A stretch of DNA of 64,000 nucleotides from Anastrepha obliqua (Eukaryota > Arthropoda > Insecta > Diptera > Tephritidae). Under the pieces are notes generated by a model that made no database searches, had not been told where the DNA came from, and saw nothing but the letters and a program-made list of their open reading frames with translations. The number at the start of each line of letters is the position of its first letter. The first letter of the stretch is position 1. Positions 7,698 to 54,100 of this stretch are shown here, in pieces. The stretch covers positions 99,517,784 through 99,581,783 of the forward strand of contig NC_072893.1 in assembly GCF_027943255.1 (NCBI RefSeq), in the 5' to 3' direction. The position numbers were made by a program, and so were the translations under genes.

Positions 7698-7973
7698 AGG
7701 CCGAGCTCCTCCTCCTATTTGTGGCGTGCGTCTTGATGTTGGTCCACCAATGGAGGGACCTCCAGCTTCAAGCCGACTCCGAAAGGCAGATATTTTTATG
7801 AGGAGCTTTTTCATGGCAGAAATATACTCGGAGGTTTGTCATTGCCTGCCGAAGGCGCCCGCTATTAGAAAAAACTTTTTGTTCATTTTGATCTTTCACC
7901 GAGATTCGAACCTACGTTATCTTTGAATTCCGAATGGTAATCACGCCCAACCCATTTGGCTACGGCGGCCGCC
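7698..7973 (-). mobile_element. tRNA-derived SINE copy
   Basis: Minus-strand copy from GGCGGCCGCCGTAGCCAAATGGG (head, near 7973) to GGAGGAGCTCGGCC at 7698. It lacks the GTGTACGCGCCAATTATATA tail found in full copies. It carries private changes relative to the 1619 copy. Confidence 0.88.
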
Positions 7974-22354: not shown

Positions 22355-22592
22355 CGGTCTCGGTGAAAACACCAAAATTAAGAAAAACATTTTTCTAATA
22401 GCGGTCGCCCCTCGGCAGCCAATGGCAAACCTCCGAGTGTATTTCTGCCATGAAAAAGCTCCTCATAAAAATATCGGCTTGAAACTGTAGGTCCCTCCAT
22501 TTGTGGAACAACATCAAGACGCACACCACAAATAGGAGGAGGAGCTCGGCCAAATACCCAAAAAGGGTGTACGCGCCAATTACATATATATA
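22355..22592 (+). mobile_element. tRNA-derived SINE, 5'-truncated, with target duplication
   Basis: Starts inside the B box (CGGTCTCGGTGAAAACACC) and runs to GCGCCAATTACATATATAT. AGGTCTT at 22348-22354 recurs at 22593-22599. The truncation of the head combined with a duplication is what LINE-driven reverse transcription would leave. Confidence 0.87.
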
Positions 22593-22899: not shown

Positions 22900-24188
22900 C
22901 GTTTGTGATGAATTCACCTCCCCTTAAAGATAACCGATGCAATATAGCCACAGGCGGAGCAACGAACCTAATGGTGGCCGTCGAAAAAAAGAGCCAAAGC
23001 AGACCCTACTTCAGTTGAAAAGACAGCAGCAAGGCCAGCAAAACTTCTGACGAGCTTCCTGAGCTCTGCCAATAAAGTTGAGGCAAACCAAATGGTACTA
23101 CCAACGCAAAATAAGAAGCTCAGAGATCTCGTCGGCAAATTGGGTTCTGAAATAGATGAGCTCATTCGTTTCTGTGAAAAAAAGGTGCAACATAATTAAG
23201 CTCTGGCATACGGAGCTAGTTATGCAAGTCGAGGCGGGAGAGGTCCAAACAACAGCCGACAGCCGCGTCATAGCCACACAAAGTTTACCACAAAGCGGTA
23301 AGCGATTCAGGGCTCAATCGAATCCCAAGGAAAACTCGCAATACCCTGAGAAGGTTACGCAGGCAAAACAAATGAGAGCTGCAGGCTCAGTGGAGAAACA
23401 AGAGCAATTAGTAAGGTCAACGCAAAAGGAGCAGGAGTGAACGAAAATTCGCAGGCAGAAGAAGGATAAAAAAGCAATAGCAATAAAACCAAGAGCAGAT
23501 GCCTTTATAATCGCATAAAAGTCTGACGGTATTTCCTATGCGGACATATTGAGGTAGTAAGATCCAACTCTGAGCTCAAGGAATTTAGCAAGGAGGTGAG
23601 AACGATTCGGCCAACACAGAAAGGACGTTTCCTTATAGAGTCAAAGCGCCGAAGTGAAGTCAATACCAAATATTAGGCTGTAATTGAAAAACACTCGCGA
23701 ACGTATCTACGGTCGATCTGCCTACCCGAACCCATATGGTCACAGTGCAGATTACAGAGCTAATATTGGAACTAAGTTCGACATACAAATTATTGGATGC
23801 CATGGCACATATCAAAAGGTCAGACAAAGGTGCGATAAAGAGTACTAGAGCAGTATATGGAGGTACGCACGCCGTTTAAATACAGCTTCTGGCAGAAGAT
23901 GCTAAGAGGACCCTAGCTCTGGGGCATTTAAGAGTTGGCTGGATAAGATATCGAGTCTCGGAAGTACTGCCGTCCAAACACTGCTATAGATGTTGGGGAT
24001 ATGGGCACGTTCCCACAGCCTGCAAGGAACCTGATCGCACTAAACAGTTCAAAAGATGCGATGAAGAAGGTCACAAAGCTGTATATTGCAGCAAAAAAGA
24101 GAAATGTTCATTATGCAAAGGCGCTCATGCAGCCGGAAGTGCAAAGTGTCCGTTTCACCAAGAGGTTGTTGGAACGCGAAGACCATGA
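22900..24188 (+). pseudogene. R1-type LINE ORF1 (Gag-like)
   Basis: Upstream part with an acid/lysine-rich coil (KLRDLVGKLGSEIDELI, about 23119-23170) and broken frames; then TRAVYGGTHAV, ALGHLRVGWIRYRVSEVLP (about 23916-23970) and three CCHC knuckles: CYRCWGYGHVPTAC, CDEEGHKAVYC and CSLCKGAHAAGSAKC (23993-24150). R1 ORF1 proteins bind element RNA. The frame ends CCATGA, so its TGA (24186-24188) overlaps the ATG of ORF2 (24185). Confidence 0.85.
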
Positions 24189-25860
24189 AACTACTGCAGC
24201 TTAATATCAACAACTGCAAAACGGCACAGGGCCTCTTAGACCTATTGGTAACGGAGAAAAGGATTGATGCGGTGCTGTTGTCGGAGCCGGTAGCGCTTAA
24301 AAACACGTTTGATTGGGCGGCAGATAAAAAGAACCTTGCTGCGATTGGGGTGACTAGAGACAAAATTGCTCAATGTAGTATGACGGCAGAATACGAGGGT
24401 TTCACCTGGGGTAAGGTACAAAACACCTACCTAGTGAGCTGCTACGCCCCACCTCGCTGGTCAATCGAACAATTTGAAAAATGCTGTCACTTATGGAAAC
24501 AGATTTGAGCGAAACGACCAACAGAAGACTTCAACGCTTGGTCTGCCACATGGGGAAGTAAAAACACTAACGCAAGAGGAAGGGCTACCAAAGAAGCATT
24601 CGCGAGCATGAATATGGTACTTATGAACGATCCCGGCCGCGGTTTGCTAACCTTTATAGCAGGTGTCTGGCTGAAGGAATGTTCCCCAAGTGTTGGAAAA
24701 AACAGCGGTTAGTCCTTCTGTTGAAGCCCGGTACGCAACCTGACCAACCGACACCGTACACTATTGGAAAGGTTTTTGAACGCATAATAAGTGAGCGATT
24801 ACAAGAACATTCCATACGCCGCTCCAGTATGGTCAGGAGGACGAACGAGACGTTGAAAAGAGTTACTGCAAGCTGACAGTATCTGATGATCCCATCTGCG
24901 TTATAGCGAGTAAAGTTCCCCTCGATATACGAGCAGAAGAACATAAGCGACTGTATCACTCACGTGCACAAACCAACATCTTAAAATAAAATAACCGAGC
25001 GCGAACGTACAATGGCAAAGTGGCAAAATAGAGGGGTTCAAAGGACGATGGATGTATAAGTTGATACCCAAACTAGATGTATGGATAAGCAGAAAGCACG
25101 GACTACTATCTAATCCAAATCCTTAGCGGACATGGTGGCTTTCTTGCGTACCTCCACCGTTTTAATCTAGCAGATAATTCGACCTGCCCAGAGTGCCACA
25201 GCGAAGATGAAAGTGCAGAACACGTGACTTTTCACTGCGCCAGATTTTTTGAAGAGCGCTTCGAGCTCGCAAAAGTCCTCGGCGTCGTCCCCTCAACGCA
25301 AATGCTGAACTCGAAAGAGAAATGCTGCAGAGAAACAGTTTGCAGCAAGGTATTTATAAAACTGCGAAATTTACAATGGGGGCGCATAGCGGAAGTAAAG
25401 GGAATGCGACCGATATAGAATGCCCAACAGATGCCCAGATGCGTTACAAAGAAGTCATTTTTAAACAGATCTCCTGTGGGGGTGACTGTATTCAGGAACA
25501 GACTACAATCACGAACACGTGAGGTAAAGCCTCAAGACGAAACCAAACAGACGACAAGTCGATATTGAGTAACGTTTTTGCAATGGTGTCAAACCGATGG
25601 CTGCTATCGATAGCGTATAACCCCAATGTGCAATTAAGAGAGGAACAAGGACGCAGGTACCTGGTGTGTCTAAAAGGCAAAAACACGTCTCCACCGTGAT
25701 AAAAGTGCTTTTATCAGTCCCAGGGTGGGATCGGCCGAGAGGGGAGGAATGTTGTAGTGTTAGTGGGAGCACGCCCCACATACCACTGGTGTGACGACAC
25801 CTTTGATGATGTTTCTGACATTTTCGATTTTAACCTCCTCTGCAAAAAAAAAAAAAACAG
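24185..25860 (+). pseudogene. R1-type LINE ORF2 with internal deletion
   Basis: Begins MKLLQLNINNCKTAQGLLDL, the start of an R1 apurinic-type endonuclease, with AVLLSEPVA, VSCYAPPRWSIEQFE and DFNAWSATWGSKNTNARGR (catalytic DFN, about 24520). After 24655 most of the RT is missing: only VWLKEGMFPKCWKKQRLVLLL and KPGTQPDQPT then VFERIISERLQEH remain, and the chain jumps to LDVWISRKHGLLSN, CPECHSEDESAEHVTFHCARF (C-terminal finger, about 25188-25245). It ends with a run of A at 25844. Duplicated at 28719-30394. Confidence 0.85.
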
Positions 25861-25865
25861 AAGTA

Positions 25866-26245
25866 CTTCACCTTGTCAGAGAGCACCAACGGAGCGCCCG
25901 CTATTGAGGGGAGAAAAACTCTAGGTATTTTATTCTTCAGAGAATATAACGAAAGGCCGCAATTTCCGGCCCAGTTCACAACTAGATTCAGATAACCCTG
26001 CATCAATTTCATCAGAGTATCTAAAAACTTACCTCTGATTTTCGATTTTAACTAGTAAGTAAGTAAGTACAGGACATTCACAGAGGTGTTGTACCAACTC
26101 AAGTTCTTCCTCATCTTCACACCTTTTGCAGAAGTAATTGTAAGGTACACCCATTCTACTGGCTATGGTACCAATAGAGCGTGCCCCGTTATAACACCTG
26201 TGAGTACGCTGGTAGTTGATCTGTTGAATCCAAGCGCACAAGCAT
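25866..26245 (-). pseudogene. LINE fragments, scrambled order
   Basis: Minus strand 26245-26029 shows RTHRCYNGARSIGTIASRMG and CKRCEDEEELELVQHLCECP, a LINE C-terminal finger. Downstream on the same strand (26012-25866) lies an earlier RT piece, NLVVNWAGNCGLSLYSLKNK and SDKVKYF. The order is the reverse of an intact LINE, so these are separate or rearranged pieces. Repeated at 30400-30779. Confidence 0.75.
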
Positions 26246-26399
26246 ACCTTCTATTGGTTTCCGCGATTGCGCTCAAGTCAATCGAAGTGCACATTTCGTT
26301 AAGAGGGGTGCCCTCTACCACTGAGTACCTTTCCTCGCACACTCATCCCCTATTTCGTTTCCCTCCACTAGAGCGACCTCCCGCATTCTTTAACATATC

Positions 26400-27396
26400 T
26401 TGAATCGATGCGCACTGAGGCCAGTGTCTTGGTAACTGCTTGACTAGCAACAAAAATGGTAAGGTTTACTGGTTTACTTTCTTAACACTTTCCTCGATGA
26501 TACTTGGATTCGTTCGATAGGGTCAGTATTACTTTTCTATAGACGATAACTGAAAATTCGGTACATTATACCTTCCAGTGAACAAATAGTTCAGCCGCTT
26601 GAGGTCGCGCACTTAGTGAGTTGCCTTAACGCTAATTGCATGAGCCCGCTGATAGTCGCAACTATCTTGATCCTCTTCTTGCTCAGCCAGAGATCTTTGC
26701 CGTTTCCCTTATCCCTTGCACGGCCTCTCACTATGCTCAAATCGATGGGATGGACCTCTTCGTTTAGACTTTTTATCAGTGAAATGGTGGTTTCGGCCTC
26801 CATTAGTGGAGGTGTAATCAACACCCTCGCGGTCGTTCGGAAGGATACATCCTTGTACTACATCTAACTTGCCTCCTGTACATAGTTCTCCAAGGCTGCG
26901 AATGCAAGTTGTAAGAAACTCCAAGCACTTTTTGTTGCTTCATCCCATAACCGTGACTCCCTTGTAATAAACACTCCCGTAATAAACACTCCAATTTACA
27001 CTGCTAAAATACGTCCCAGATCGGCTGAGTTTAACAATCCTGTTGATGATTGACGACTCTTAATGATTCATTATCATGATTGATTATATGTTGTTGTTGT
27101 TGCCATTGCCGTTACCGTTGATTTTGTTCTAACAACTTTACGGCTTAAAGCGGTAAAACTAGCAGTTGTCAATTTCATCGATCGACAGGTTGTGACTAAA
27201 GAAAGAGCTGTGTTAGATGAGTGGGTATCAAAAGATATGTGAAGAGAGTGTACCTTCGGGTAGAGCCGGGTACCTTCGCATGCACATGTAAAGTACGAAG
27301 GAGTAAATTCTGGGCGTTATAGTATCCAGAATACAATTGCGTCAGGGTACCTCGGGTCTCAAGAGGAGGTTGATACATGTATACGATATAATATAA
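26400..27396. other. Unassigned sequence in duplicated unit
   Basis: Contains minus-strand open frames at 26591-26924 (LIKSLNEEVHPIDLSIVRGR and neighbours) that could be LINE ORF1 coding, but I cannot confirm this, and a short (GTT)n tract near 27093. Repeated at 30934-31930. Confidence 0.35.
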
Positions 27397-27898
27397 TCTA
27401 TAATATAAAAATAAGTCGGGTTTTCCTTCCTAACGCTATAACTCCAGAACGCACAAACCGACTTCCACGGTTTTGCATTCATTGGAAAGATCTCGGGCTA
27501 CGTGAGGTTTATAGTATGAACTCTGCTCAATTGATTTTATGTGACATTTATTATGCGCACGTTCTTTCAAACGCTAACTTAAAACCGGTATTGTGTTCAC
27601 TGTGAAATTGTGAAATTGAGGTTAAAGTTATTCATTTACTAACAGTTCAATTGGAAACCATCAAATCAATCACATATATGTCAAAGTCGGGACAGACGTT
27701 TAGCGTTCATCCGATTCAATCAGACAAAGCTACGATCTGAGGACTATATACACTTGCGTGATGCTATTCATTCAGATGGTAATGTTCAGAATATTGGACG
27801 CCTGACGATTCTCCCATCATTTTATACCGGAAACCCACGCCTGATGCACGAATACGCTCAAGACGCTATAACGTACGAGCGAAATTATGGAACTCCGG
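27397..27898 (+). mobile_element. Helitron 5' end, cut by the duplication
   Basis: Starts TCTATAATATAAAAATAAG, a canonical Helitron 5' end following an A. It holds the CGCTATAACTCCAGAACGCA leader and the start of a Rep frame ending GTPD, broken off at 27898 where unit B begins. Confidence 0.88.
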
Positions 27899-30800
27899 CA
27901 AAACAATGAGAGCTGCAGGCTCAGTGGAGAAACAAGAGCAATTAGTAAGGTCAACGCAAAAGGAGCAGGAGTGAACGAAAATTCGCAGGCAGAAGAAGGA
28001 TAAAAAAGCAATAGCAATAAAACCAAGAGCAGATGCCTTTATAATCGCATAAAAGTCTGACGGTATTTCCTATGCGGACATATTGAGGTAGTAAGATCCA
28101 ACTCTGAGCTCAAGGAATTTAGCAAGGAGGTGAGAACGATTCGGCCAACACAGAAAGGACGTTTCCTTATAGAGTCAAAGCGCCGAAGTGAAGTCAATAC
28201 CAAATATTAGGCTGTAATTGAAAAACACTCGCGAACGTATCTACGGTCGATCTGCCTACCCGAACCCATATGGTCACAGTGCAGATTACAGAGCTAATAT
28301 TGGAACTAAGTTCGACATACAAATTATTGGATGCCATGGCACATATCAAAAGGTCAGACAAAGGTGCGATAAAGAGTACTAGAGCAGTATATGGAGGTAC
28401 GCACGCCGTTTAAATACAGCTTCTGGCAGAAGATGCTAAGAGGACCCTAGCTCTGGGGCATTTAAGAGTTGGCTGGATAAGATATCGAGTCTCGGAAGTA
28501 CTGCCGTCCAAACACTGCTATAGATGTTGGGGATATGGGCACGTTCCCACAGCCTGCAAGGAACCTGATCGCACTAAACAGTTCAAAAGATGCGATGAAG
28601 AAGGTCACAAAGCTGTATATTGCAGCAAAAAAGAGAAATGTTCATTATGCAAAGGCGCTCATGCAGCCGGAAGTGCAAAGTGTCCGTTTCACCAAGAGGT
28701 TGTTGGAACGCGAAGACCATGAAACTACTGCAGCTTAATATCAACAACTGCAAAACGGCACAGGGCCTCTTAGACCTATTGGTAACGGAGAAAAGGATTG
28801 ATGCGGTGCTGTTGTCGGAGCCGGTAGCGCTTAAAAACACGTTTGATTGGGCGGCAGATAAAAAGAACCTTGCTGCGATTGGGGTGACTAGAGACAAAAT
28901 TGCTCAATGTAGTATGACGGCAGAATACGAGGGTTTCACCTGGGGTAAGGTACAAAACACCTACCTAGTGAGCTGCTACGCCCCACCTCGCTGGTCAATC
29001 GAACAATTTGAAAAATGCTGTCACTTATGGAAACAGATTTGAGCGAAACGACCAACAGAAGACTTCAACGCTTGGTCTGCCACATGGGGAAGTAAAAACA
29101 CTAACGCAAGAGGAAGGGCTACCAAAGAAGCATTCGCGAGCATGAATATGGTACTTATGAACGATCCCGGCCGCGGTTTGCTAACCTTTATAGCAGGTGT
29201 CTGGCTGAAGGAATGTTCCCCAAGTGTTGGAAAAAACAGCGGTTAGTCCTTCTGTTGAAGCCCGGTACGCAACCTGACCAACCGACACCGTACACTATTG
29301 GAAAGGTTTTTGAACGCATAATAAGTGAGCGATTACAAGAACATTCCATACGCCGCTCCAGTATGGTCAGGAGGACGAACGAGACGTTGAAAAGAGTTAC
29401 TGCAAGCTGACAGTATCTGATGATCCCATCTGCGTTATAGCGAGTAAAGTTCCCCTCGATATACGAGCAGAAGAACATAAGCGACTGTATCACTCACGTG
29501 CACAAACCAACATCTTAAAATAAAATAACCGAGCGCGAACGTACAATAGCAAAGTGGCAAAATAGAGGGGTTCAAAGGACGATGGATGTATAAGTTGATA
29601 CCCAAACTAGATGTATGGATAAGCAGAAAGCACGGACTACTATCTAATCCAAATCCTTAGCGGACATGGTGGCTTTCTTGCGTACCTCCACCGTTTTAAT
29701 CTAGCAGATAATTCGACCTGCCCAGAGTGCCACAGCGAAGATGAAAGTGCAGAACACGTGACTTTTCACTGCGCCAGATTTTTTGAAGAGCGCTTCGAGC
29801 TCGCAAAAGTCCTCGGCGTCGTCCCCTCAACGCAAATGCTGAACTCGAAAGAGAAATGCTGCAGAGAAACAGTTTGCAGCAAGGTATTTATAAAACTGCG
29901 AAATTTACAATGGGGGCGCATAGCGGAAGTAAAGGGAATGCGACCGATATAGAATGCCCAACAGATGCCCAGATGCGTTACAAAGAAGTCATTTTTAAAC
30001 AGATCTCCTGTGGGGGTGACTGTATTCAGGAACAGACTACAATCACGAACACGTGAGGTAAAGCCTCAAGACGAAACCAAACAGACGACAAGTCGATATT
30101 GAGTAACGTTTTTGCAATGGTGTCAAACCGATGGCTGCTATCGATAGCGTATAACCCCAATGTGCAATTAAGAGAGGAACAAGGACGCAGGTACCTGGTG
30201 TGTCTAAAAGGCAAAAACACGTCTCCACCGTGATAAAAGTGCTTTTATCAGTCCCAGGGTGGGATCGGCCGAGAGGGGAGGAATGTTGTAGTGTTAGTGG
30301 GAGCACGCCCCACATACCACTGGTGTGACGACACCTTTGATGATGTTTCTGACATTTTCGATTTTAACCTCCTCTGCAAAAAAAAAAAAAACAGAAGTAC
30401 TTCACCTTGTCAGAGAGCACCAACGGAGCGCCCGCTATTGAGGGGAGAAAAACTCTAGGTATTTTATTCTTCAGAGAATATAACGAAAGGCCGCAATTTC
30501 CGGCCCAGTTCACAACTAGATTCAGATAACCCTGCATCAATTTCATCAGAGTATCTAAAAACTTACCTCTGATTTTCGATTTTAACTAGTAAGTAAGTAA
30601 GTACAGGACATTCACAGAGGTGTTGTACCAACTCAAGTTCTTCCTCATCTTCACACCTTTTGCAGAAGTAATTGTAAGGTACACCCATTCTACTGGCTAT
30701 GGTACCAATAGAGCGTGCCCCGTTATAACACCTGTGAGTACGCTGGTAGTTGATCTGTTGAATCCAAGCGCACAAGCATACCTTCTATTGGTTTCCGCGA

Positions 30801-32432
30801 TTGCGCTCAAGTCAATCGAAGTGCACATTTCGTTAAGAGGGGTGCCCTCTACCACTGAGTACCTTTCCTCGCACACTCATCCCCTATTTCGTTTCCCTCC
30901 ACTAGAGCGACCTCCCGCATTCTTTAACATATCTTGAATCGATGCGCACTGAGGCCAGTGTCTTGGTAACTGCTTGACTAGCAACAAAAATGGTAAGGTT
31001 TACTGGTTTACTTTCTTAACACTTTCCTCGATGATACTTGGATTCGTTCGATAGGGTCAGTATTACTTTTCTATAGACGATAACTGAAAATTCGGTACAT
31101 TATACCTTCCAGTGAACAAATAGTTCAGCCGCTTGAGGTCGCGCACTTAGTGAGTTGCCTTAACGCTAATTGCATGAGCCCGCTGATAGTCGCAACTATC
31201 TTGATCCTCTTCTTGCTCAGCCAGAGATCTTTGCCGTTTCCCTTATCCCTTGCACGGCCTCTCACTATGCTCAAATCGATGGGATGGACCTCTTCGTTTA
31301 GACTTTTTATCAGTGAAATGGTGGTTTCGGCCTCCATTAGTGGAGGTGTAATCAACACCCTCGCGGTCGTTCGGAAGGATACATCCTTGTACTACATCTA
31401 ACTTGCCTCCTGTACATAGTTCTCCAAGGCTGCGAATGCAAGTTGTAAGAAACTCCAAGCACTTTTTGTTGCTTCATCCCATAACCGTGACTCCCTTGTA
31501 ATAAACACTCCCGTAATAAACACTCCAATTTACACTGCTAAAATACGTCCCAGATCGGCTGAGTTTAACAATCCTGTTGATGATTGACGACTCTTAATGA
31601 TTCATTATCATGATTGATTATATGTTGTTGTTGTTGCCATTGCCGTTACCGTTGATTTTGTTCTAACAACTTTACGGCTTAAAGCGGTAAAACTAGCAGT
31701 TGTCAATTTCATCGATCGACAGGTTGTGACTAAAGAAAGAGCTGTGTTAGATGAGTGGGTATCAAAAGATATGTGAAGAGAGTGTACCTTCGGGTAGAGC
31801 CGGGTACCTTCGCATGCACATGTAAAGTACGAAGGAGTAAATTCTGGGCGTTATAGTATCCAGAATACAATTGCGTCAGGGTACCTCGGGTCTCAAGAGG
31901 AGGTTGATACATGTATACGATATAATATAATCTATAATATAAAAATAAGTCGGGTTTTCCTTCCTAACGCTATAACTCCAGAACGCACAAACCGACTTCC
32001 ACGGTTTTGCATTCATTGGAAAGATCTCGGGCTACGTGAGGTTTATAGTATGAACTCTGCTCAATTGATTTTATGTGACATTTATTATGCGCACGTTCTT
32101 TCAAACGCTAACTTAAAACCGGTATTGTGTTCACTGTGAAATTGTGAAATTGAGGTTAAAGTTATTCATTTACTAACAGTTCAATTGGAAACCATCAAAT
32201 CAATCACATATATGTCAAAGTCGGGACAGACGTTTAGCGTTCATCCGATTCAATCAGACAAAGCTACGATCTGAGGACTATATACACTTGCGTGATGCTA
32301 TTCATTCAGATGGTAATGTTCAGAATATTGGACGCCTGACGATTCTCCCATCATTTTATACCGGAAACCCACGCCTGATGCACGAATACGCTCAAGACGC
32401 TATAACGTACGAGCGAAATTATGGAACTCCGG
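27899..32432 (+). repeat. Tandem duplication, unit B (4534 bp)
   Basis: Near-identical second copy of 23364-27898. Contents repeat in order: R1 ORF1 finger end and ORF2 (to 30394), scrambled LINE pieces (30400-30779), unassigned sequence and Helitron start (31931). Its right edge is where the Helitron continues. Confidence 0.95.
28535..30394 (+). pseudogene. R1-type LINE, second copy within unit B
   Basis: Same content as in unit A: ORF1 knuckles (CYRCWGYGHVPTAC at about 28527), ORF2 start overlapping at ATGA (28719), endonuclease DFN region, large RT deletion and the C-terminal finger CPECHSEDESAEHVTFHC (about 29722). Stops are shared with unit A, so it was already dead when duplicated. Confidence 0.88.
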
Positions 32433-34784: not shown

Positions 34785-35099
34785 ATGAGCGGTAGCCGGA
34801 TGAGATAGTGCGTGACTACTATTAGAAATTCAGAGAGAATGTCGGTTCGAATCTCGGTGAAAGACCAAAATGAAGAAAAGTTTTTTCTAATAGCGGTCGC
34901 CCCTCGGCAGGCAATGGCAAACTTTCGAGTGTATTTCTGTCACGAAAAAACTCCTTATACAAATATCAACCGTTCGGAGTCGGCTTGAAACTGTAGGTCA
35001 CGCCATTTGTGGAACAACATCAAAATTAGAAGGAGGAGCTCGGCCAAACAACCAAAATGGGCTTACGTGCCCATTATATATATATATATAATGTGCGGT
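34785..35099 (+). mobile_element. tRNA-derived SINE, diverged copy in piggyBac
   Basis: Head AGCCGGATGAGATAGTGCG, B box GGTTCGAATCTCGG and the usual body to GCTTACGTGCCCATTATATA. Flanked by ATGAGCGGT (34785-34793) and ATGTGCGGT (35091-35099), a 9-bp duplication with one change. The first bases of the usual head are absent. Confidence 0.83.
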
Positions 35100-35159: not shown

Positions 35160-36410
35160 AACCGACTTTCTTCAGCATTGGATACTGATATTCATGGTGG
35201 AAGTACAAATGAAGATAAGGATGATGATATGGACTCATTTGGTAATGGTGATGATGATCGGGAGGTGACTAATTGTCTGAGGAAAATGCATCCGATATTG
35301 GACAGGAAGAAATAATCGAATTAAATGAAATACTTGACTGCGATGAAGAAATTGAGGACGATTTATAGAGTGAATCAACGGTTGCGCCAGAACCAAGAGT
35401 TGACGATCAGTTTTGCCAAGGCACAGATGGAACATAGTGGATGAAAGATGAGCCATCTGCGGCTATTCGTATTCGACAATAATATTATGCGACTTCGCTC
35501 CGGATTAAGCATCAACATTCTGTTCCTATTGAAGTATTCAAGATTTTTGTAAACCCAATTCTACATTCATATATTTGTGGCCGCCCTAGCCAAATGGGTT
35601 GGTGCGTGACTACCATTCGGAATTCACCGAGAGAACGTCGATTCGAATCTCGGTGAAACACCAAAATTGAGAAAAACATTTTTCTAATAGCGGTCACTCC
35701 TCGGTAGGCAATGGCAAACCTCCGACTGTATTTCTGCCATGAAAAAGCTCCTCATAAAAATATCTGCCGTTCGGAGTGGGCTTGAAACTGTGGGTCCCTC
35801 CATATGTGGAACCATATCACGACGCACGCCACAAATAGGAGGAGGAGCACGGCCAAACACCAGAAAGGGTGTACGGGCCAATTATATATTGTATATATAT
35901 AATATTTCATTCATTATCATTTCGGGAACAAATCGATATGCAAGTGAAATAGTTTAAAAATGGAATAAAGGAATTTCAGATGCAAATCAAAGAGTTTGGA
36001 TTGATCTGACTAGCACTGAGCTTGATACTTTTGTTGGTATTCTTTTGGACATGGGTGTAACACACAATAATATACAGAAAGCGGAAATTTTGTGGCGCTC
36101 GGATGCTCTGCCCATTTTTCGAGCTGCAATGTCCCGTCGTCGATTCACATTTTGACACGATTTATTAGATTTGAAAACAGTCGAACATGCTAATTTCGCC
36201 AAAAAACCGATAACGCTGCGCCCATTGGTGATACATATATGGAATTTCTAGAATGACAACCTCAAGGATAATTATTATCCATAAAAACATATTTCTATTG
36301 ACGAATAACTAAATATTTCCACATCGAGGCCGAACTACAATAAATTCACAGAATATATCCTTTCAAAACTTGCGAAATACGGCATAAAGATCTGGTGGAC
36401 ATGTGACTCC
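35160..36410 (+). pseudogene. piggyBac transposase pseudogene
   Basis: Acidic N-terminus (DEDIGQEEIIELNEILDCDE-like frames, 35190-35380), then FFKIFVNPIL-like to 35575, SINE, and ISGTNRYASEIV, WIDLTSTELDTFVGILLDMG (35998-36057), DALPIFRAAMSRRRF (36103-36150, the first catalytic aspartate lies just beyond in this family), ITLRPIGDTYMEFL and KNISIDE (about 36280-36300), containing the IDE catalytic acid. Stops and shifts abound. piggyBac transposases cut and paste at TTAA. Confidence 0.82.
35578..35900 (+). mobile_element. tRNA-derived SINE copy in piggyBac transposase
   Basis: Full-length copy: TGGCCGCCCTAGCCAAATGG, TTGGTGCGTGACTACCATTC, B box ATTCGAATCTCGG, body and GGGCCAATTATATATTGTAT tail. 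It splits the transposase frame between NPIL and GTNRYAS. No clear duplication because both flanks are AT-rich. Confidence 0.88.
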
Positions 36411-36954: not shown

Positions 36955-37531
36955 ATTAAATAATAGCATGGTTCGCTCTTAAGTCGCCACCATTTTGGAA
37001 ACCAGATCCGCGTCATTGGTGCGCGCAGATAAAAACCAAGTTTTCGCGGGCAGGTATCATCACATGATCGTCATGCCACAAAATACTTTATGGTGGTTGC
37101 TGAAATTGATTCAGCAGTATTATCACACGCCACCGATATAATTGCAGCTCCTTCCACTGGCGGAAAGTACAACGCATTGAAGAAGCGACACATTGGCAAA
37201 TTCGGCGAATCAAACGAAAAAAGACTCAAATGTTTGTTCCAAGCCTGCGAATTAGGGGGAAAAAACAATAGCATTATTAGGGAAAATAAAATACCTAGCA
37301 AATCAGCGCTTGAACAAAGAAATTTTAAAGTCGCTTTGACTACGGCGCTTGCCTGTGCACGTGAACAGATTTTAACAACGCTGGAGGACAATATTGAGGA
37401 GTTAGCTTGGGAGCCCGACAACATTATGGATTTCAACAACGAATAGCGACATAAATGTCTTCAGCACTCCTGATATATCAACTGAAATCTCTGAATTGGA
37501 GATCAGATTACATTGACTGGAGTTTAGTAAC
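36955..37531 (+). pseudogene. Gypsy-like Gag fragment, interrupted by Transib
   Basis: Across frames: KSPPFWKPDPRHWCAQIKTK and FSRAGII (36976-37060), then MVVAEIDSAVLSHATDIIA, STGGKYNALKKRHIGKFGE and KRLKCLFQACELG (37090-37260), the capsid pattern of Ty3/gypsy-group Gag (PPFW...P..WF..VE..F and GKY..LK). It runs up to the Transib insertion at 37537 and continues beyond 40377. Frame breaks near 37060 and 37446 show decay. Confidence 0.82.
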
Positions 37532-37536
37532 CGTCG

Positions 37537-40372
37537 CACAGTGATTCAGGTATATGGGCTAATCGGACAAAAATCACTACTCCTTACTTACCGATTTTAA
37601 TTTAATAAAAGCAGTTGTGTAGCTCATGTATAGAGTTACAACTGTAGCATGAAAAAAAGTTCTGGGCTAAGTTAGGAGGCAGGAAGTATAAACGAAAAAT
37701 TTTAGAATATTAAACATTGAACTTTTAATAATATTAATTTATTTAAAACAATAATTTTTGCTATACATTTAAAAAAATCAAAATTATGTTTCCTCTTTAA
37801 TTAGCTAGGAATATTTTTAACGCATTCACAAACTTTATATAATAAAAAAAAAATATTTTTCAGTAGTACAAAAAAAAACTTAACATAGGAAAGGAAGAAA
37901 AAGAAAATTATTTAGTTAGTCACTATCTGAAATATTTTCTAAATCAAATTGATTTACATTTTCCTCTAAAATATAGGTTTTAATATCCGAAAAATTAAAA
38001 GAATGCGAAGTGGTAGTCTTTCTCAGAGAAGATATAAAGGGGTCTGATGTGACTAGTAAATATGTCATAATATCTTTATTAGTGCTTATTCTAGAATTTT
38101 TTCGTATATGATAAAGACGACTATTTCGTACCTCCTTATGCCTAGCTTCAAGTGCGTCTTCTGCCAGTTGCACTATTGGTAAATCAAAATGTTTAATGAT
38201 CTCTTCGCCATGAACTAATAATTTATGAACACTGGAAGGCATATAAAACCAGTCATATAATTCAATGTAAAGCTCTCTGGTATTATTTAAAAGTTCTCGA
38301 AAAATGTCGATGTTAATTTGCTTTCCAGAAGACACAACACGTAATATTTGAGAAAATTTAAAAATCAAATTCTCATCAATGCCCGTTATTTCAGAGCTTA
38401 TTTTGGGATTTTGAAAAAACCTTCTTGCCGTATTCCCATCATTAGTGGACCCGTAACCTGGCTTAGGTTTATCCACAACTAAGCCTAATTTTCTTTTAAA
38501 GTCGTTTGAATTATTTCTTTTGAATATCAACGCTTTTTTCCGTGCCTTTTACTTGTCAGCTTCTAAAAGGAAGCCTATAAGCAATATGTAATAAATATTC
38601 GAAGCTACGGATCCACGAATGAAGAGATGACATCCCAAAATTAAAATTTTCGATTTTAACTGGTTGTTTGAGAACTTCTTTAGTATTCATTTGTTTTGGT
38701 GTAGCTCCACAAATGAAGCAAGTTTGAGTAGAATTAGTCTCTGATAAGGTATTAATGCAACTTCCATCAAACATTGTAAAGTGAAATTTAAAATTTACAG
38801 TGTAATTTTTGTTTTGAAAATTTATAATTATATTTTTTAAATCGTTTATTTCTTGCTGCAGTCTCAAGCCTTCTGTTTTAACTAAATAGGAATTTTCTTT
38901 AACAAACATAAATTTAATTGGTCGACAGAAAAATGTTGACGAAGAGCGAGGATTATTCCAAAAAATATAACCTTTTTCAACTGACAAGTTAAGGGGTGAC
39001 ATAGCAACTAAAAATAAATATTCGTCAGTCATTTCTGTGGAGCTAAATACTTGTTTGTAGGTGCTATGCCCAGAGCTTCCATCGAATCCGTATTTACATG
39101 TCAGAGTTAAAGTTTCACTTTTTATATATTCTCTGTCTAATATTGATTTTAAAATGCTTTTTAATGTATAATCAAGAAGTTGTTGTAGATTTATTTTAGA
39201 TCCTTGTTCTGTGGTTATAATATCTTTTGGTAATAAACTGTCTCGAAGCTGTCGCAGTTTATAGATGCTGGGTAAAAATTCTGAATGCACACTATTAATA
39301 TAATAATTGATCTAAGTAAGTTATATTTTCTCTGAGAAAGATCTAACTGAAGATAAAGCGCTAAAGTTTCCTGTAAAGTCAATGAATGTTTTTTGAATTC
39401 CTTAAACTCAACCTGACTATTACTTTTTTTAGATAATTCTTTTACCGCAAAAGAAAGCTCCTCCAAGGTGTATTTTGAGACCAGTTCTTCAATTCGCCTC
39501 TTTTTAGTCTTCTCACTTGACTCCCCAAAGGTACATAAGGTCTTCCACGAGAAGTGCTTTGTTCAGCAAAAGTGTTACCTGGAACAGCTGGTTTTCTTAA
39601 AATAGCTTTTAGTGAGGTCATATATATTTCAGAGTTCAGCCATTTGCTTTCTTTGGCTAAAAACTGTTCTTTTCTGCGAAAATTTTTTTGCCATTTAATA
39701 TTTATTTCTCCACAAAAAATGCCAACAGATTTTTCAAATTCCCGCTTAGTTGCTTTCGTGACAGTCTGAAGTCTCATTAGGTTTAGAACCTTTTCAACTA
39801 ACTTATTTTTCCTTTGTTTTTTGGGCAATGAAATCCATGTATCCACCAAATCTTTATATTTTATATTTGACAAAGTACCTAAAAAATAAAAATTCGGAAT
39901 AAAGTACAACTTTGCGCAAAAAAAGGCCTATACCTTTAAAAACAGAACAGTTTAAAATATCAAATAACAACAAATTTGAAAAAGCACCTTTTGGGACCTT
40001 TAACCAAAAATAGAGTTTTCTAAAAATACTGACTACTTTACAAAAAAAATTAAGAAAAATACCAAAAATATATTAAAATATTTACATACCTTGCTGAATA
40101 TTTGCCATAATAAACGAGTCAAACTATAAAATATCGAAACGTTCAGAACGAACTACCATACAATAATAAATGTTGATCAAATCTAAAAAAAGCAAAATAG
40201 GATTTTATTTAGGTAGACTTTATCATAATTTTACTGATAAGGAAACAAAAAATAAAAATAAACTTAAGGTGATTTTATTTAAGCAATATAATGCAGATTT
40301 TATTTCCATTTTAGTTTTTCTAAAATATTGCTTTTAATTTTTTGATTTTTGTCTATTGTTTAAATCACTGTG
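37537..40372 (-). mobile_element. Transib element, nearly complete, with RSS-like ends
   Basis: 2836 bp. Both ends begin CACAGTGATT inward; CGTCG flanks it on both sides (37532-37536 and 40373-40377), the 5-bp GC-rich duplication typical of Transib. At the left end CACAGTG, 23 bp, then ACAAAAATC (37567-37575). At the right end, on the minus strand, CACAGTG, 13 bp, then ACAAAAATC (40352 down to 40344). A RAG1-like transposase runs on the minus strand. It interrupts a gypsy-like gag. Confidence 0.93.
37916..39909 (-). pseudogene. Transib (RAG1-core-like) transposase, frameshifted
   Basis: Four overlapping or adjacent minus-strand frames join to about 690 residues, the usual Transib length: 39909-39442, 39466-39215, 39290-38556 and 38530-37916. 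Catalytic landmarks: KYGFDGSSGHSTYKQ with the first aspartate (about 39080), FTMFDGSCIN with the second (about 38770), a zinc-binding CFICGATPKQMN, LGLVVDKPKPGYGSTNDGNT, RRFFQNPKISSEITGID and LAEDALEARHKEVRNSRLYH with the glutamate of the DDE triad (about 38155). In the family this enzyme nicks at the heptamer and forms hairpins as RAG1 does. About three shifts and a TGA near 38556 break the chain; otherwise the sequence is well kept. Confidence 0.92.
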
Positions 40373-40815
40373 CGTCGTAGCGCGTAGCAAAAGGAATGCA
40401 ATCGTGGTGGTGATACTGTACGCCTGCAGCCACGCACTAAACAATGCGTAATAAAGGCTCAACCAGCAGGCACAACCATCTATTGCTCCCATCGCACATT
40501 TGGCGAAATTGCAACACTATCCGGTCAACCATGTGCTTATGGAAAAATTGATTCGGAAAACTAGTCGCCTCTCCGTTTAGAGCGGCAACCGCAGAGGCCG
40601 ACACTAGTTCCAGCCGCTTTTTCGTTCGGGATAAAATATCTTCCGAAAAATTTTTTATCGACACGGGAACTGCGATTTCAGTGATATCTAAACGTTCGAA
40701 CGGCAATGATCACACAACAGCTATGAAGTTAGTTGCCGCAACGGACCTATTATGACGGGCCTATAAGTCGTATTTATAGGAAGACTCACTCGCAACTTAT
40801 TTTAAAGATTTCAAC
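40373..40815 (+). pseudogene. Gypsy-like Gag end and protease fragment
   Basis: Continues the element cut by Transib: CSHRTFGEIATLSGQPCAYG (about 40473-40530, a damaged CxxH..C..PC knuckle), a linker, then FFIDTGTAISVISKRSN (about 40650-40695) with the DTG of a retroviral-type aspartic protease. The frame fades at about 40810. No RT follows. Confidence 0.8.

Positions 40816-41682: not shown

Positions 41683-41719
<37 letters not shown>
41683..41719. repeat. (TA)n microsatellite
   Basis: About 18 TA units directly beside the SINE tail, probably grown from the TA-rich 3' end of the SINE. Confidence 0.9.
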
Positions 41720-41720
<1 letters not shown>

Positions 41721-41997
41721 TTGGCGCATACTCTTTTTAGGTATTTGGCCGAGCTCATCCTCCTATTTGTGGTGAGAGCTACAGTTTTAAACCGACTCCG
41801 AACAGCAGATATTTTTTATGAGGAGCTTTTTCATGGCAGAAATACACTCGGAGGTTTGCCATTGCCTGCCGAGGGGCGACCGCCATTAGAAAATTTTTTT
41901 CTTTATTTTGGTCTTTCACCGAGATTCGAACCTACGTTCTCTCTCTGAATTCCGAATGGTAGTCACGCACCAACTCATTCGGCTACGGCGGCCGCCC
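41720..41997 (-). mobile_element. tRNA-derived SINE copy
   Basis: Minus strand: GGCCGCCGTAGCCGAATGAG head, B box GGTTCGAATCTCGG, body, and end near GAGTATGCGCCAAG with the (TA)n tail. A deletion removes about 25 bp around the TGTGGAACAACATC body segment. Confidence 0.88.
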
Positions 41998-45150: not shown

Positions 45151-48100
45151 ATGAAACTAGTAAGTTTGCTTTTTAAATGTACAAATGTCGCGAATGTTTT
45201 TATGAAATTTTTAAAATCAGTGTATATGTGTGATACAAAAGTGATATAATAATATTATAACATCTGTGTAAAAACTATTTATACATAAAAAGAATACCTT
45301 TTAAGTATATTTTTTAAAGGCGATTTTTAATATCGTAATATTATCTACAGGTTATCATATTTTGTTTTATTGTGTATACTTCTGCGGATGTGAAATACGG
45401 AACAGATCGTAATCTAGATTTATTCAAATATGACCCAAGTGACGTTTTCACGTTGCCTGAAGATATTGACGACGAGAAGCCAGCTGTTGTTTTTGAAGGA
45501 AATGTTATGAGGGCAAAAGTGGAAAAACTGCAGAGCTTTAATGGAAATAAAAAATTCAAATTAGAGTAAGTATTTATAAATATTGGCATAGAATTTCTGA
45601 AACGAAATAATGAAGTTTGTTGGTTATTGAGATCATAAAAAACACTCAAAAAAAAAAATAAATAAAGCTATAGTATAACACTAAAATTACCAATTTAAAA
45701 GTTGATTATGAAAAGGCTACTTCTCTGATATCTAAAAATTGCATCCTTTTTGCTACAATATATAGCGTAGAAAATTCGTGGATGTGAAAAAATAAAGTAG
45801 TATTTCCATCGTCATATTAACATTTAAACAGATTATAACATTTATGACATCATGCTACCAAAGAACAAATAAGAAAAACGAGAGTTCCTTATTCCCTAAG
45901 CGTAACTTTTTTTTGCTCATTATAAGCTCATTAATCAACAGTTTATATATTATTACTAAGAGCTGTTAACTCAACATCCTTCAAATTATTTAGTTGTTGC
46001 TACAACAACGCATAAACAATCCCCATACATATACGAGGAATGCTGCTGAAGTGACAGTTCTGGGCCGAATATACATCCGGGTCGTTCCGGTTACATATGT
46101 AGAATGTCGTGGGAACGGAAGTTCTTTAGTAACAAGATCGGCTTCATTACTACTTTCTACTTTCTTATATTTCTGACCTTGGACATTTCTAGTATTATCA
46201 GGGTCCATCTGACATTTCCATTTGAAAATTTAAAATATTTTATTACAAACACACTCAGAATATTTTGATGTGTGAGCCGAAAAGTTAGAATTAAGCCGTG
46301 AACATTTTCGTGCGATTATAAATATTTCAGAATTTTCGACGAGAATTAGCACGACAAGAATACATCAATAAATTAAAACCTTTCGGAGTCGGCTTGAAAC
46401 TGTAGGTCCCTCCATTTGTGGAACAACATCAAGACGCACGACACAAATAGGAGGAGGAGCTCGGTCAAAAACCCAAAAAAGGGTGTACGCGCCAAATGAA
46501 CATATATATATTATATATGTTCCGTCGTACATGGCACTCCACAGTGAGGGTCCGAGAACAGATCCCTGAGGGACGCCACCAGAGACTGTACATGTCTTTA
46601 GACAGTTATCCGTATCATACTGCAAGATTCCAATGTAACTTCGTATTGTGCGTATTAGATATCCAAGGACTTGGAGATTTATTAGAGATAGCAAAATATT
46701 TGACCACCTCTCCGAATTGAACGCAGTTTAGACGTCTAGCATGATAATTGCACGGAATTTCATGCGCGTGTGTCCTCCGTTATTAGAGTCGCGCGCTATA
46801 TTTGTCACGGATCTAATAGCGACCACAGTCGATCTAGCCCGTCTGAAGTCAAATTGTGTGTTCGGATGGGCCGGTTGGGCAATCCAGATAGCTTTGTAGC
46901 CGGTCAAAAATGATGCGCTCAAACACTTTACCCACCGCATCGAGCATACAGAGGGCTCTGTTTGCCAAGGATTGATCTAGTTGCTTAGCTGCTTTGAGTA
47001 ACAGCACTAGTCGGTGCGATTTCCATCTGCGCGGGAAAGACCCTTCATTAAGACATGCTTCGTATATATTCGCGAAGATTTCTTGCGTCGCCTGCACTGA
47101 TGCCTTAAAGGCGATGTTAGGAACGCCGTCTGGGCCTGGTGCCCAGAAAGACAACAGTCTTTTATAAGTCTCAACGTGCTTAAGACTTTTTCTGTTGTAA
47201 CTGGCGGAATATAGCCGATGTCAGTTACCATTTGGTGTCGGTCACTAGAGTCCTCTTGTTGGGGAAAAAACTCCATTATCACTTGGCGGCTGAGCAGGGT
47301 GTGGTATGTAAGTCGCGGTTCTTTTAATTTCTGCAGTAACGTTCTGTAGGCAAGAACTCAGGGATCATTGTCAGCGCTGTTTTGCATTTCCTTAAAGGAT
47401 CGAGTTTTGCTCTGTTTAATAGCTGTTTTCATCTCAGGCTTGCGTTCACGGTATTCGGCGCGCAGCACTGTCCATGCTGGACGATGTCTTGCTCTTTGCA
47501 CTTTTTACAGGCTTTGCGTGTACTAGCTATCTCAGTTGTCCATCAATAGACGGGTTTTCTTTTGTTGTTGAATCTGCTTCTTGGCATGGCTGCATCACAC
47601 GCATCTTTCATGTGTTCGGAAATCTGTTCCGCCATATCTTTCATCGCAGTGCGGGAGACAGTGACATTTCTCCAAATCAATTGAAAGCTCTCGGCGTTGA
47701 AGGCAAGTCTCTTTTGTTGCATCCTTAGTTGTTCTGGCAGTGAGTGTACACATTTTCGTCTACCATCCATTTTGCGCGGTTTGCCGTGGTGCAATTTACA
47801 ATAGCGAGGTCGTTTATTAATCCCCCGCTGGCGCAGTCGAAGGTATTCACTCCTGGGGTGTTGAGCAGGGCAAGGTCCATTGCTGCCATAGTTTCTTCTA
47901 ATAATCGCCCACTCCAGGCTGTGTACCGACTACCCCATGTCCCCGACCATGCATTAAAGTTTTCTGCGATGAGAATCGTCCGCTTTCCACTTAGCTTCCA
48001 GTGGTGTCATCATGGGTTCAAAATCTGCTAAGCTCCACCTTGGTGGTACATAGCAGCTCACATAGTATAAACCATCTAGCTTCGCCCATGTGAATCCGGT

Positions 48101-51100
48101 ATTTGCAACAGATATCATATTCTGGGGTGTCTTACTGCCCACCCCCCAGATTACCACTCCGTAATTAAAAAGCGAGAAGTAATTAAGAAGCGAAGAGAGC
48201 GAAATAAAATACATAGAAGACGGTAAAGAGAACAGGTTTATAGACATAATTCTAATATCACTTTTTTTATGTATTATTAACTATGCATTCATATAACAGA
48301 AAAAAGCGTTTGTCCGTAAACGCTTTGTTCTCTTATTACTTATTGTAAAATGTAATATTGAATTTCGCATGCGAATTACTGCCATAATTTTTTGAAACCT
48401 CAGGAAACGTCGTTTACGGACTTCCTCTTATTGTTTATTAGTAGTACCCAATTCCGCAATTAAATTAGCTATTCCTTCTCCTTGTCTTTTCTTCATATCG
48501 TTAATAATAATTCAACAAACCAAAAGCTCCAAAATATTCCACCAAACCAATTTCTATGAAGAAAAACCTTTCAAAGCAGTGTTGACAGCTGATTGTCAAT
48601 TTCAGAGGTATTCGGTCATATGTAAAGGAGTGGATTAGTTTTGTGGATTTCTTGGTAATTACTGCATATTACGTTCGTATAACGTTGAAACTTCAGCATA
48701 GCCACAGTATTAACCAGATCTGAACTTTATTGAAAATTTATTAATTCGAATCATTAAAACGGCCTGATTTGAAATTTCATTAGGCTATCTAGAGGATTTA
48801 TGCAAATCCATTCATGAACGTCTTTACAAAGTAATTTATAAACAAGATGGCAGTACAAACTATTAAGTTCTAAATAATAAATGTAAAAAAAATAAAATTG
48901 CTAATATTTGTTCTATTTTTTTCTTATTTGGTTACTGCCCCTATTCAAGTGAACCAATAAATCAAGTATCACAGCTGCTGAAGTGTTGCTGCGAAATACT
49001 ATTAGATGGAATAATATCACTGGTTTACAGCCAAAATTCACCAGAGACGCCGTTATGAAATCCCTATGTAAAATCACCGTCTGATTCCGAAAATCAAGGT
49101 TATTTTTTATTCTATGGTAACGTTTTTGAGATATTTACGAATTACCGTTATTTCAAAAAAAAAAAAATTGGGCCCACTTTATCATATATATCTCGAGAAT
49201 GAATTAAGCGATTCCAAAACCGTTTAAAGCATTTAAAAGGTAATACAATTTGCTATAAACAGTGTGTAAAACACTTTTTGCTAGGCCCTGCAGATTCAAA
49301 GATAACGAACTATCATAACGGATTTTTTAAATTTTTTTTGTAAAAATATAAAAGAAATTGTATTTTGAGAGAAAGGATCTCGAAAACTTTTTACATTTTC
49401 GTGTATTTTTTATTTTCACTCTAAGCTCTGTTTTATTACAAAAAAAATAAACTTTGATTAAACCAAATCGATGAACTAATACAAAAGTTACAAACATTCA
49501 AGTAAATATATCCATATAGTAAAACTTTATATATATATATAATTGCGCGTACACCCTTTTTGGGTGTTTGGCCGAGCTCCTCCTCCTATTTGTGGTGTGC
49601 GTCTTGATGTTGTTCCACAAATGGAGGGACCTACAGTTTTAAGCCGACTCCGAACGGCAGATATTTTTTATGAGGAGTTTTTTCATGGCAGAAATACACT
49701 CGGAGGTTTGCCATTGCCTGCCGAGGGACGACCGCTATTAGAAAAATGTTTTTTTTTTTTTTCTTTCTTAATTTTGGTGTTTCACCGAGATTCGAACCGA
49801 CGTTCTCCCTGTGAATTGCGAATGGTAGTCACGCACCAACCCATTCGACTACGGCGGCCGCCAAACTTAAAACTTTAGTACCCTACAAATAATAGCATAT
49901 GTACATATGATTCTGTCTTAACTCTATGATCTTATTTTATAATTGAAAAAGTTATGTGTCTTGTTTTGACGCTTATTTATATAAGGATCGGTTTCTCTTA
50001 TGAGAAACCAACAGTAGTCACCCATCATAGCGACATCCCAGAATCCTTGATACCGACTTTCAATCATTTTCATTTGCTGGTGAAACCTTTCGCCATGCTC
50101 GTCACTTTCGTCGCCAAGATTTTGCGGGAAAAAATTTAAATGGGAGTGCAGAAAATGAATTTTTAAAGACATATTTACTCCTGAAAGAAAATTAAAAAGG
50201 GAATTAGATAAATTAGTGACACATTAGCACATAATTTTCTTAGGCTGGATTAATCTTCCAATTTAGAACAAATTTTGGTCGTTCTTGTTTGTTCGGAGCA
50301 GGGTAATAAATTCAGATTAAGGGCTATATAATCTCATGTAAATTTAAAAATTTGCTTTCAAATTTTTTGTTAAGTTTTAAAGTTAACTGAGAAAACGATC
50401 TTATATGTGTTTTTTATTTACCCATTTCCGCATAGTTTTTGATTAAATCGTTCACTATCAGCTCGAAGTTAGGACTTTTGTGTTTGCTTAAAAAAGAAGT
50501 AACAACCTTTTCAAAAGAGTCCCACGCCGCTGCCTCCACTGGTGACAATAGTTCTTTGAAATGGGTATTAGCCATTATTTTCCTTATTTGCGGCCCCACA
50601 AAAATCCCTTCTTTTATTTTTGCTTCTGAAATCTGTGGAAAGATTGTTTTCAAATAATGAAAAGCTTCGCCTTCTTTGTCCAAAGCCTTGATAAAGTTTT
50701 TGATAAGGCCGAGCTTGATGTGGAGCGGAGGTATAATTATTTTTTCCTTCTTTATAAGTGGTGAGTATTTTATGTTATCCACCCCAACTTGAAACTCGAT
50801 TCGTTCTGGCCAATCCTTTATGATGTAGTGGTCTTGACATGCTCGGCTATCCCATTTGCATAGAAAGCAACAGTATTTTGTGTATCCAGATTGTAGACCA
50901 CATAGCATTCCAACGACTTTTAGATCGGCACATATTTTCCAATCATGTTCTTCGTATTTAATTAATTTAAGCAATTTTTGCATTGTCTCATATGTTTCCT
51001 TCGTATTTACTGCATGCGCGATCGGGATAGATGGCTTTTGGTTGCCAATATGCAATAATACGGCCTTTAAACTTAATTTATTGCCGTCTATGAACAATCG

Positions 51101-54100
51101 CCACTCTTTTGAATCATATGGTTCACCAACCTGTTTAAATAGACCAGCAATGTTTTTGCAATAACAAACACTGTCCTTCTTCGTATAGTACTGGGAGAAT
51201 TGTTCGTGACGAGTCCTATAATATGTTACCTTAACATCGGATGAAACAAATTTGAATTGTTGCATACGAGAGGTGTGTAGTTCGGCCTTTTCTTTTGACA
51301 ATTCCAAATCCCTTATCCAATCATTTAGTTGTGCTTGTGACAAAGGGATTCTTTCGTTTTCCGTTTGCAATTCAGTACAACATGATGCCGCGTAATCAGA
51401 TACTGCTGTTGACAATGAAACTGGATCCGAAACTAAAGTTAAATTTGATTTTGGCAATGTAACTTCCGTTGAATTTAGTTCTGGTAATGACACTGTAGAT
51501 ACGCTCGCATACCCCAAATACTTTCCAACCCCAAATACTTTTGTAGTACAAATAAAGCAGTCCGTTGAATGGCAAGTTGGTTCCCTCCACTTCATTGGTG
51601 TAATAAATTTCATGTCGCCTAAATAGATAGTTTAAGAAATTAGTCAGATATGCATTAAAAGAGAGCAAACTCCTAATTTTTACGATGTACCTTTTGCTTC
51701 CGGTTTCCGAAAATATCAATTCGACTCGACATGTGGTGCACAAAGTATTCGGTGTCCATGGTTTTTCATTGTTTCTAGGCTCAATTCCATAACACTTATG
51801 GTATGCAAATTTCAAAGGATTTGAAAACACACGTCGTATCCTTTTAACGATAAATTCCCCGCAGATGAAACAGAACATATCTGGATCATTTTTACACTCA
51901 AACTCTCGCGCCCTTTTATTCATATTATATTTTTAAGTAAATGACGGATTATAAACTGCAATTATAAAGTGAACAGTATCCGGCTATCCTTGCAGAAATT
52001 ATGAAGGAACGAGGCACATGTACTATTATTTATTCTTACATAGATCAACTAAAAATGCAAGCCTACCTATACAAAAAGGTTCCCTAGTTATACATAGAAA
52101 ACACTACCTGCCTTAAACATATGATCTTGCTTGAAATGTATCTGTGTTTGAGATAACGCCACTAACAATTTTTTGTATCTAATGATCCTTCCAAAATCTA
52201 CCTGTAACTAACTGAATTGCGAATACTAACACATATTACCAGTAGGGTACTTCAGTATTAAATGGATATATTTACTTGAATGCTTGTAACTTTTGTATTA
52301 GTTCATCGATTTTGTTTAATCAAAGTTTATTTTTTTTTTGTAATAAAACAGAGCTTAGAGTGAAAACAAAAAATACACGAAAATGTAAAAAGTTTTCGAG
52401 ATCCTTTCTCTCAAAATACAAATTTTTTTATATTTTTACTAAAAAAAATTAAAAAATCCGTTATGATAGTTCGTTATCTTTGAATCTGCAGGGCCTAGCA
52501 AAAAGTGTTTTACACACAGTTTATAGCAAATTGTATTACCTTTTAAATGCTTTAAACGGTTTTGGAATCGCTTAATTCCTTTTCGAGATATATATGATAA
52601 AGTGGGCCCAATATTTTTTTTTTTTGAAATGACGGTAATTCGTAAATATCTCAAAAACGTTACCATAGAATAAAAAATAACCTTGATTTTCGGAATCAGA
52701 CGGTGATTTTACATAGGAATTTCATAACGGCGTCTCTGGTGCAGAAAAAAAGTTAAAATTTGTGATCCAGTGTATTTTGATGCATACAGTCTTCACTTGA
52801 ATTATCAGAAACTCTTGTGTTACTAGATCAAATACTGTTGCTTTAAGAACCATTTTCTTATATGAAAATTGGTTTTATTTAAAAAAATTGCGCCGCGATT
52901 TTTTATTCCAAATTTTCACTGTATTATTAATATTTGATATGTATATATGTATTGTCATCATCATTGCAGAGCTCTTGATTGTCGCGAAGATTCCGACTGT
53001 TTCGGCACTCGTCCGATGCTTTTGTATTTATAGGAATAGGAAAATTGTCAGACCCGTATCCTCATAGGATATCCTTGTGATTGGTTGGCGGTTTCCCTTC
53101 TAGTTTCACTGTTTTCCTTCATACACACAGTTTACTAGCCAGCATGCAGAGCATTTGGCGTTATTTTCGTGCCTCCCTTCCTCTCCCTAAGCAAGATGCC
53201 CTAAGGCGGAAGCCCTTACTGTCTATTGTTATTATTATTATCATTATTATTACATTATTATCCTATTCTAAAAAGTTTCAACGATCTTATAAGTAAACAT
53301 GAAATTTACAATTAATTTCATAAAATAATTCATATTAACAATTTTAGTTTAAAGACTCAAAACGGTATTGAAGTCACCAGTGTTGGCAAATTAAAAGATG
53401 ACAAAACCTTTGTTGTAAGCGGTTCCTATTCTTTTACTGGAGCTGATGGTAAACGTTACAAAACCCGCTACACCGCTGACGAGCTCGGATATCATCCTAT
53501 CACGGAACTGGATTTGGATATTCCTGAGTAAGAGTTTTTTTCTCGTAATTATTCTAGCTTTTTTATTCGTAAGCTTGTTAGACAGCTATAAAGTATAATA
53601 TACAGGTATTGCTTCAGTAAGTATTAGGAATGCCATTAATCACTGCGAATGGGAATGCGACATGGTACTAAGGAAAAGATGTATTAGGATATCAGTCCTT
53701 CTTCAGAAAGTTTCGAGAGACAAAGCAGTAAGCTGATTGATCTATATGATGATGAAAGTCTTTCAACTTTCTCTGAATTAACTATTATAATGATCTCTGA
53801 CCTTTCACATTTAGAAAAATATCCAAATTTTAATTGAAAATGTTTTCGATTAGAGAGTGAGCAATATTGGAGCGTCTTCGATTCGCCATACCTTAGCCAG
53901 TGTCAAATGAATGAAGCAAATGGCACAAATGCACATATGTTGGCAACACTGGAAAAATTCATTACCATGGCAGCCAGTTCGACAGCCGACAAAGGGCTGC
54001 CGCCCCAGTAAACTAGCTCTATTTCGTCTACTGTATTTCACCCCTAATCTATCGTCACAGCCCATCGGTGCAACACAATTCCCTCATCTCCGACCAACAA

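Follow-up and report, generated by a model that had tools for sequence, protein, structure and literature searches.

Transib elements are jumping genes related to the enzyme that shuffles antibody genes, and a copy in the tephritid Anastrepha obliqua raises the question of whether its two ends are laid out like the long and short recombination signal sequences (RSS) of V(D)J recombination, and of how a transposase would read such a layout. The copy lies in a 64,000-bp stretch of contig NC_072893.1 (positions 99,517,784 to 99,581,783, forward strand), hereafter the window, and it is a Transib transposon of 2,836 bp that runs end to end with both ends present and has been inactivated. Its left end reads CACAGTG, 23 bp, ACAAAAATC, and its right end, on the minus strand, reads CACAGTG, 13 bp, ACAAAAATC, so that the short spacer lies on the transposase 5' side. 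The element and its ends are composed as follows.

37532..37536, no strand, left target site duplication CGTCG, read directly
37537..40372, minus strand, Transib transposon, inactivated, recognized by its ends, duplication and transposase pieces, with the transposase on the minus strand
37537..37543, plus strand, left heptamer CACAGTG, read directly, exact V(D)J consensus
37544..37566, plus strand, left spacer of 23 bp, read directly
37567..37575, plus strand, left nonamer ACAAAAATC, 8 of 9 bases shared with ACAAAAACC
40344..40352, minus strand, right nonamer ACAAAAATC, 8 of 9 bases shared with ACAAAAACC
40353..40365, minus strand, right spacer of 13 bp, read directly
40366..40372, minus strand, right heptamer CACAGTG, read directly
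40373..40377, no strand, right target site duplication CGTCG, read directly

An earlier note on this DNA had given the same end coordinates and spacer lengths, an identical nonamer at both ends, a heptamer equal to the V(D)J consensus and a short spacer on the transposase 5' side, all of which were borne out by direct reading. The same note had placed the nonamer two bases away from the consensus, which is wrong, since ACAAAAATC differs at one base from ACAAAAACC, the consensus nonamer as quoted in the accessible part of one source (PMC8289069). Both ends of the element also carry a 10-bp inverted repeat, CACAGTGATT, and inward of it an 11-bp word, GACAAAAATCA, while the two spacers have only their first three bases (ATT) in common. 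With a nonamer-like motif at each end and spacers of 23 and 13 bp, the one copy read belongs to the 12/23 type, defined by spacers of 12 and 23 bp, give or take 1 bp.

The earlier note had asked that chance be tested in such AT-rich DNA, and several observations do point that way. The element is only 29% guanine plus cytosine (GC), and neither word is rare by itself, since the window holds 9 copies of CACAGTG against 4.88 expected and 4 of ACAAAAATC against 2.08 expected. Among 5,000 pairs of internal 50-mers, an exact common word of at least 9 bp was found in 142 and one of 11 bp in 16, and an 11-bp word common to both ends appeared in 1, 6 and 13 of 4,000 dinucleotide shuffles at 40, 50 and 60 bp per end, respectively; taken alone, the common word is moderately improbable, and its length of 11 bp speaks against coincidence. 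These word-count and common-word tests are the weaker ones, the stronger being the comparison with ACAAAAACC, an external RSS consensus. Matches of at least 8 of 9 bases to this nonamer occupied 2 of the 5,656 positions on both strands of the element, exactly at the two ends and in the expected places and orientation, against 26 of 122,312 positions in the remaining window. A nonamer at 22–24 bp from one end together with another at 11–13 bp from the other was never equalled by shuffled flanks (0 of 20,000 at each of three flank lengths), and, with any spacing from 8 to 35 bp allowed, both ends had a nonamer in a fraction of 0.00005 to 0.0001 of the shuffles. Moreover, the two element ends were the only sites among the 9 CACAGTG heptamers with a nonamer of at least 8 of 9 at a spacing of 11–13 or 22–24 bp, the next best reaching 6 of 9. 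Given the 2 of 5,656 positions and the absence of the arrangement from the shuffles, the RSS-like arrangement of the ends is real and well beyond chance in this copy, and coincidental nonamers are an extremely improbable explanation.

The identification as Transib made in the earlier note is upheld by transposase homology, the catalytic residues, the CGTCG duplication and the heptamer-like ends. The duplication is perfect and is of the GC-rich 5-bp kind that characterizes the Transib superfamily, as are ends that start with CAC. When the 13 left-type and 15 right-type heptamers of the window were combined, a single pair 60–5,000 bp apart had an identical 5-bp flank, namely 37537..40372. A profile built from relatives of the transposase matched HzTransib, the element of Helicoverpa zea, at an E-value of 1.7e-131. 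The central transposase piece is 93% identical over 244 amino acids to an Anastrepha obliqua protein, which points to a tephritid host. Its score against the Pfam RAG1 family fell short of the cut-off (E-value 0.01); this family was matched by 32 of 60 transposase relatives at 0.1 or better (best 1.2e-12). The gene lies on the minus strand in pieces, and its exon structure was modelled on P0013, a protein of Anastrepha ludens (LOC128864767).

40090..40108, minus strand, transposase exon 1 (MANIQQ plus one base), same start as in P0013, splice sites predicted
39879..40089, minus strand, putative GT...AG intron of 211 bp, predicted from the comparison with P0013
37916..39878, minus strand, transposase exon 2, interrupted by one stop and three frame changes, from open reading frame (ORF) pieces and translation
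39482..39549, minus strand, RGRPYV...FGESSEKTKKRRIEEL segment, similar to the RAG1 nonamer-binding domain, with a frame change inside
39081..39083, minus strand, catalytic Asp codon, aligned with HzTransib D126
38766..38768, minus strand, catalytic Asp codon, aligned with HzTransib D225
38147..38149, minus strand, catalytic Glu codon, aligned with HzTransib E436

Of the frame changes in exon 2, one follows RGRPYV, another follows LRSII and the third lies between about 38535 and 38524; the stop comes after PFRS. All three residues of the DDE triad, numbered as in the accessible part of the HzTransib source (PMC6941560), are present in the broken frames. The ORFs of at least 60 amino acids in the element are transposase pieces, except for one of 71 amino acids on the plus strand that overlaps exon 2; no RAG2-like ORF was seen among them, by inspection and without a RAG2 profile search. 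Overall, the element is a cut-and-paste Transib DNA transposon that is dead as a transposase source and whose ends are apparently intact.

No further copy was found inside the window, where the matches from BLAST of the element against the remaining sequence were all short (best 47 bp, 79% identity, E-value 0.001). Neither the alignment of 60 relatives (A3) nor two end patterns had matches in viral_contigs, and genome_contigs yielded no match, which says little because these collections contain no insect genomes as such. Two weak viral_contigs matches of a second alignment (A2) were dropped because the surrounding ORFs, judged by eye, were unlike Transib.

Whether the transposase would have a domain able to hold the nonamer depends on its N-terminal region. 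A sequence profile alone gave no significant match to the RAG1 nonamer-binding domain (E-value 0.22); 13 of the 15 N-terminal segments were aligned, P0068 and P0091 being left out. When P0013 was folded, the RAG1 nonamer-binding structure 3gna_A appeared in the VIA list and was absent from the 50 Foldseek matches listed; the VIA listing for the full-length model of P0024 covers mainly residues 148–613 and is thus no test of the N-terminal part. The GR of the GRP motif is carried by 60 of the 60 relatives in A3, a count biased towards proteins that reach that far, since length and coverage were the criteria by which the 60 were chosen among the top 120 of 451 matches. The N-terminal part of the relatives models weakly like a nonamer-binding domain.

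The P0013 model has other features of its own. Residues 1–102 form a confidently predicted all-helical domain ahead of the GRP segment, in a region absent from the solved HzTransib chain, and no fold match stood out for it among the VIA matches. In this gene model the Transib N-terminal part (1–282) is joined to a fibrinogen C-terminal domain (PF00147), with ficolin matches at about 282–344, and the junction is either a modelling artefact or a fusion between transposase and host gene.

How might such ends work? We lean towards the view that they are two-part transposase binding sites, with the heptamer at the cleavage point and the nonamer 23 or 13 bp inward, and that long and short ends are paired. 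Hairpin-forming cut and paste at the heptamer is established for relatives, and here the RNase H-like core would read and cut at the heptamer CAC, as is established for RAG1 and HzTransib. The GRP-containing N-terminal domain, as the equivalent of the RAG1 nonamer-binding domain, may hold ACAAAAATC; since the 10-bp difference between the spacers is about one turn of the helix, both nonamers would lie on the same face of the DNA, though at different distances. The synapse would then pair one long with one short end, and the excised element would have joined a CGTCG target with a 5-bp stagger, visible as the duplication. A stronger proposal, that a tephritid Transib lineage still uses this two-part, two-length signal, read by a homologue of the RAG1 nonamer-binding domain, and pairs long with short ends only, appears unlikely at present; if true, RAG2 would postdate both the heptamer-nonamer code and the 12/23 rule, and these could be tested in a single-protein system.

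Long/short pairing must be weighed against another possibility, which we consider somewhat doubtful, namely that the nonamer is a real subterminal transposase binding site and that 23/13 is an ordinary left/right asymmetry with no 12/23-like rule behind it, its closeness to 12/23 being incidental. Several published observations favour this possibility. Subgroup II Transibs include both symmetric and asymmetric ends, unlike subgroup I, in which all are asymmetric (PMC9435367), and other Transibs have symmetric spacers of 20–22 bp, according to the accessible part of PMC8355894. Besides, the available portion of PMC7204232 proposes that invertebrate RAG-like elements have little sensitivity to asymmetry and describes their enzymes as relying mainly on the terminal 15–17 bp, which argues against a strict spacer rule. 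Against mere incidence, however, 23/13 is within 1 bp of 23/12, as is the case for five other Transib families in the part of PMC8355894 consulted. Alternatively, the family may have equal spacing, with some 10 bp gained or lost in one spacer of this dead copy, so that the asymmetry would be private to it. The decay of the coding sequence and the reading of a single copy are compatible with such an event, but neither the two heptamers and two nonamers nor the duplication show any damage, and the spacers, alike only at ATT, give no sign that one was derived from the other by shortening; we regard a private change as quite improbable.

The window contains other repeats. A head-to-tail duplication of 4,537 bp with 99.96% identity (23362–27898 and 27897–32432) either arose in tandem very recently or is an artefact of the assembly. 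At 49039–52741, an inverted pair of 486 bp with 96.5% identity (49039–49521 and 52256–52741), both arms of which begin with CACCAGAGACGCCG, encloses an ORF of 399 amino acids (50414–51613, minus strand) with no significant Pfam match, and the whole resembles a further DNA transposon, one with long inverted repeats at its ends. A dispersed repeat occupies eight intervals (1622–1938, 7694–7973, 22358–22592, 34792–35086, 35579–35889, 41708–41996, 46379–46518 and 49528–49862), most of which start, by eye, with a tRNA-like stretch, and is probably a tRNA-derived short interspersed nuclear element. Directly left of the Transib element, an ORF of 118 amino acids (37090–37446, plus strand) is DUF7041-like, with a score that falls short of the Pfam cut-off (E-value 1.9e-5).

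Ends of the 12/23 type and a GRP nonamer-binding-like domain have already been described for Transibs (PMC9435367, and PMC8355894 in its accessible part). The latter reports 12/23 asymmetry, with spacers within 1 bp, for Transib5 of Drosophila melanogaster and for Transib2, N1, N2 and N3 of Anopheles gambiae, a list that originates from Kapitonov and Jurka (2005) and is known here through that part of PMC8355894. Accordingly, of the 12/23-like asymmetry suggested by the earlier note, the 23/13 arrangement stands as beyond chance in one copy, whereas the resemblance itself had been reported before for other Transibs. In the literature covered on Transib ends, Anastrepha and Tephritidae, which was available in part, no tephritid Transib was named, and Anastrepha was named only for another element. 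With the present element, the few families reported to have 12/23-type ends gain a further Transib, one that comes very close to both V(D)J signals. It combines near-consensus nonamers with a transposase in whose relatives the N-terminal part shows a weak modelled likeness to the nonamer-binding domain. Relatives that are still intact could be used to test directly whether a spacer rule depends on RAG2.

Like Transib5 and the Anopheles families, the element combines a heptamer with a nonamer-like motif at each end, and one of its spacers is long and the other short; it differs in its host, and these families were compared by description rather than by end sequences. HzTransib (PDB 6pqn and others), the solved chain of which is missing the N-terminal part, is unlike it in having symmetric ends with little or no nonamer similarity, and most Transib families have symmetric ends, as stated in the accessible part of PMC8289069. 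Amphioxus ProtoRAG resembles it in that its terminal and inner elements are conserved and stand at two different spacer lengths, and it prefers an asymmetric pair of ends, according to the same part of PMC8289069, but has spacers of 27 and 31 bp, an inner element GCCATCTTG and a RAG2L gene. With the vertebrate RAG1/RAG2 signals the element shares the exact CACAGTG, a nonamer matching at 8 of 9 bases, a long and a short spacer, a RAG1-like core and a GRP-containing N-terminal segment; it differs from the vertebrate system in a short spacer of 13 rather than 12 bp, in being a transposon and not a domesticated recombinase, and in that no RAG2-like ORF was seen in it. Since 12/23-type Transibs have been published and most families are symmetric, the element is one more good example of a kind already known and in the minority.
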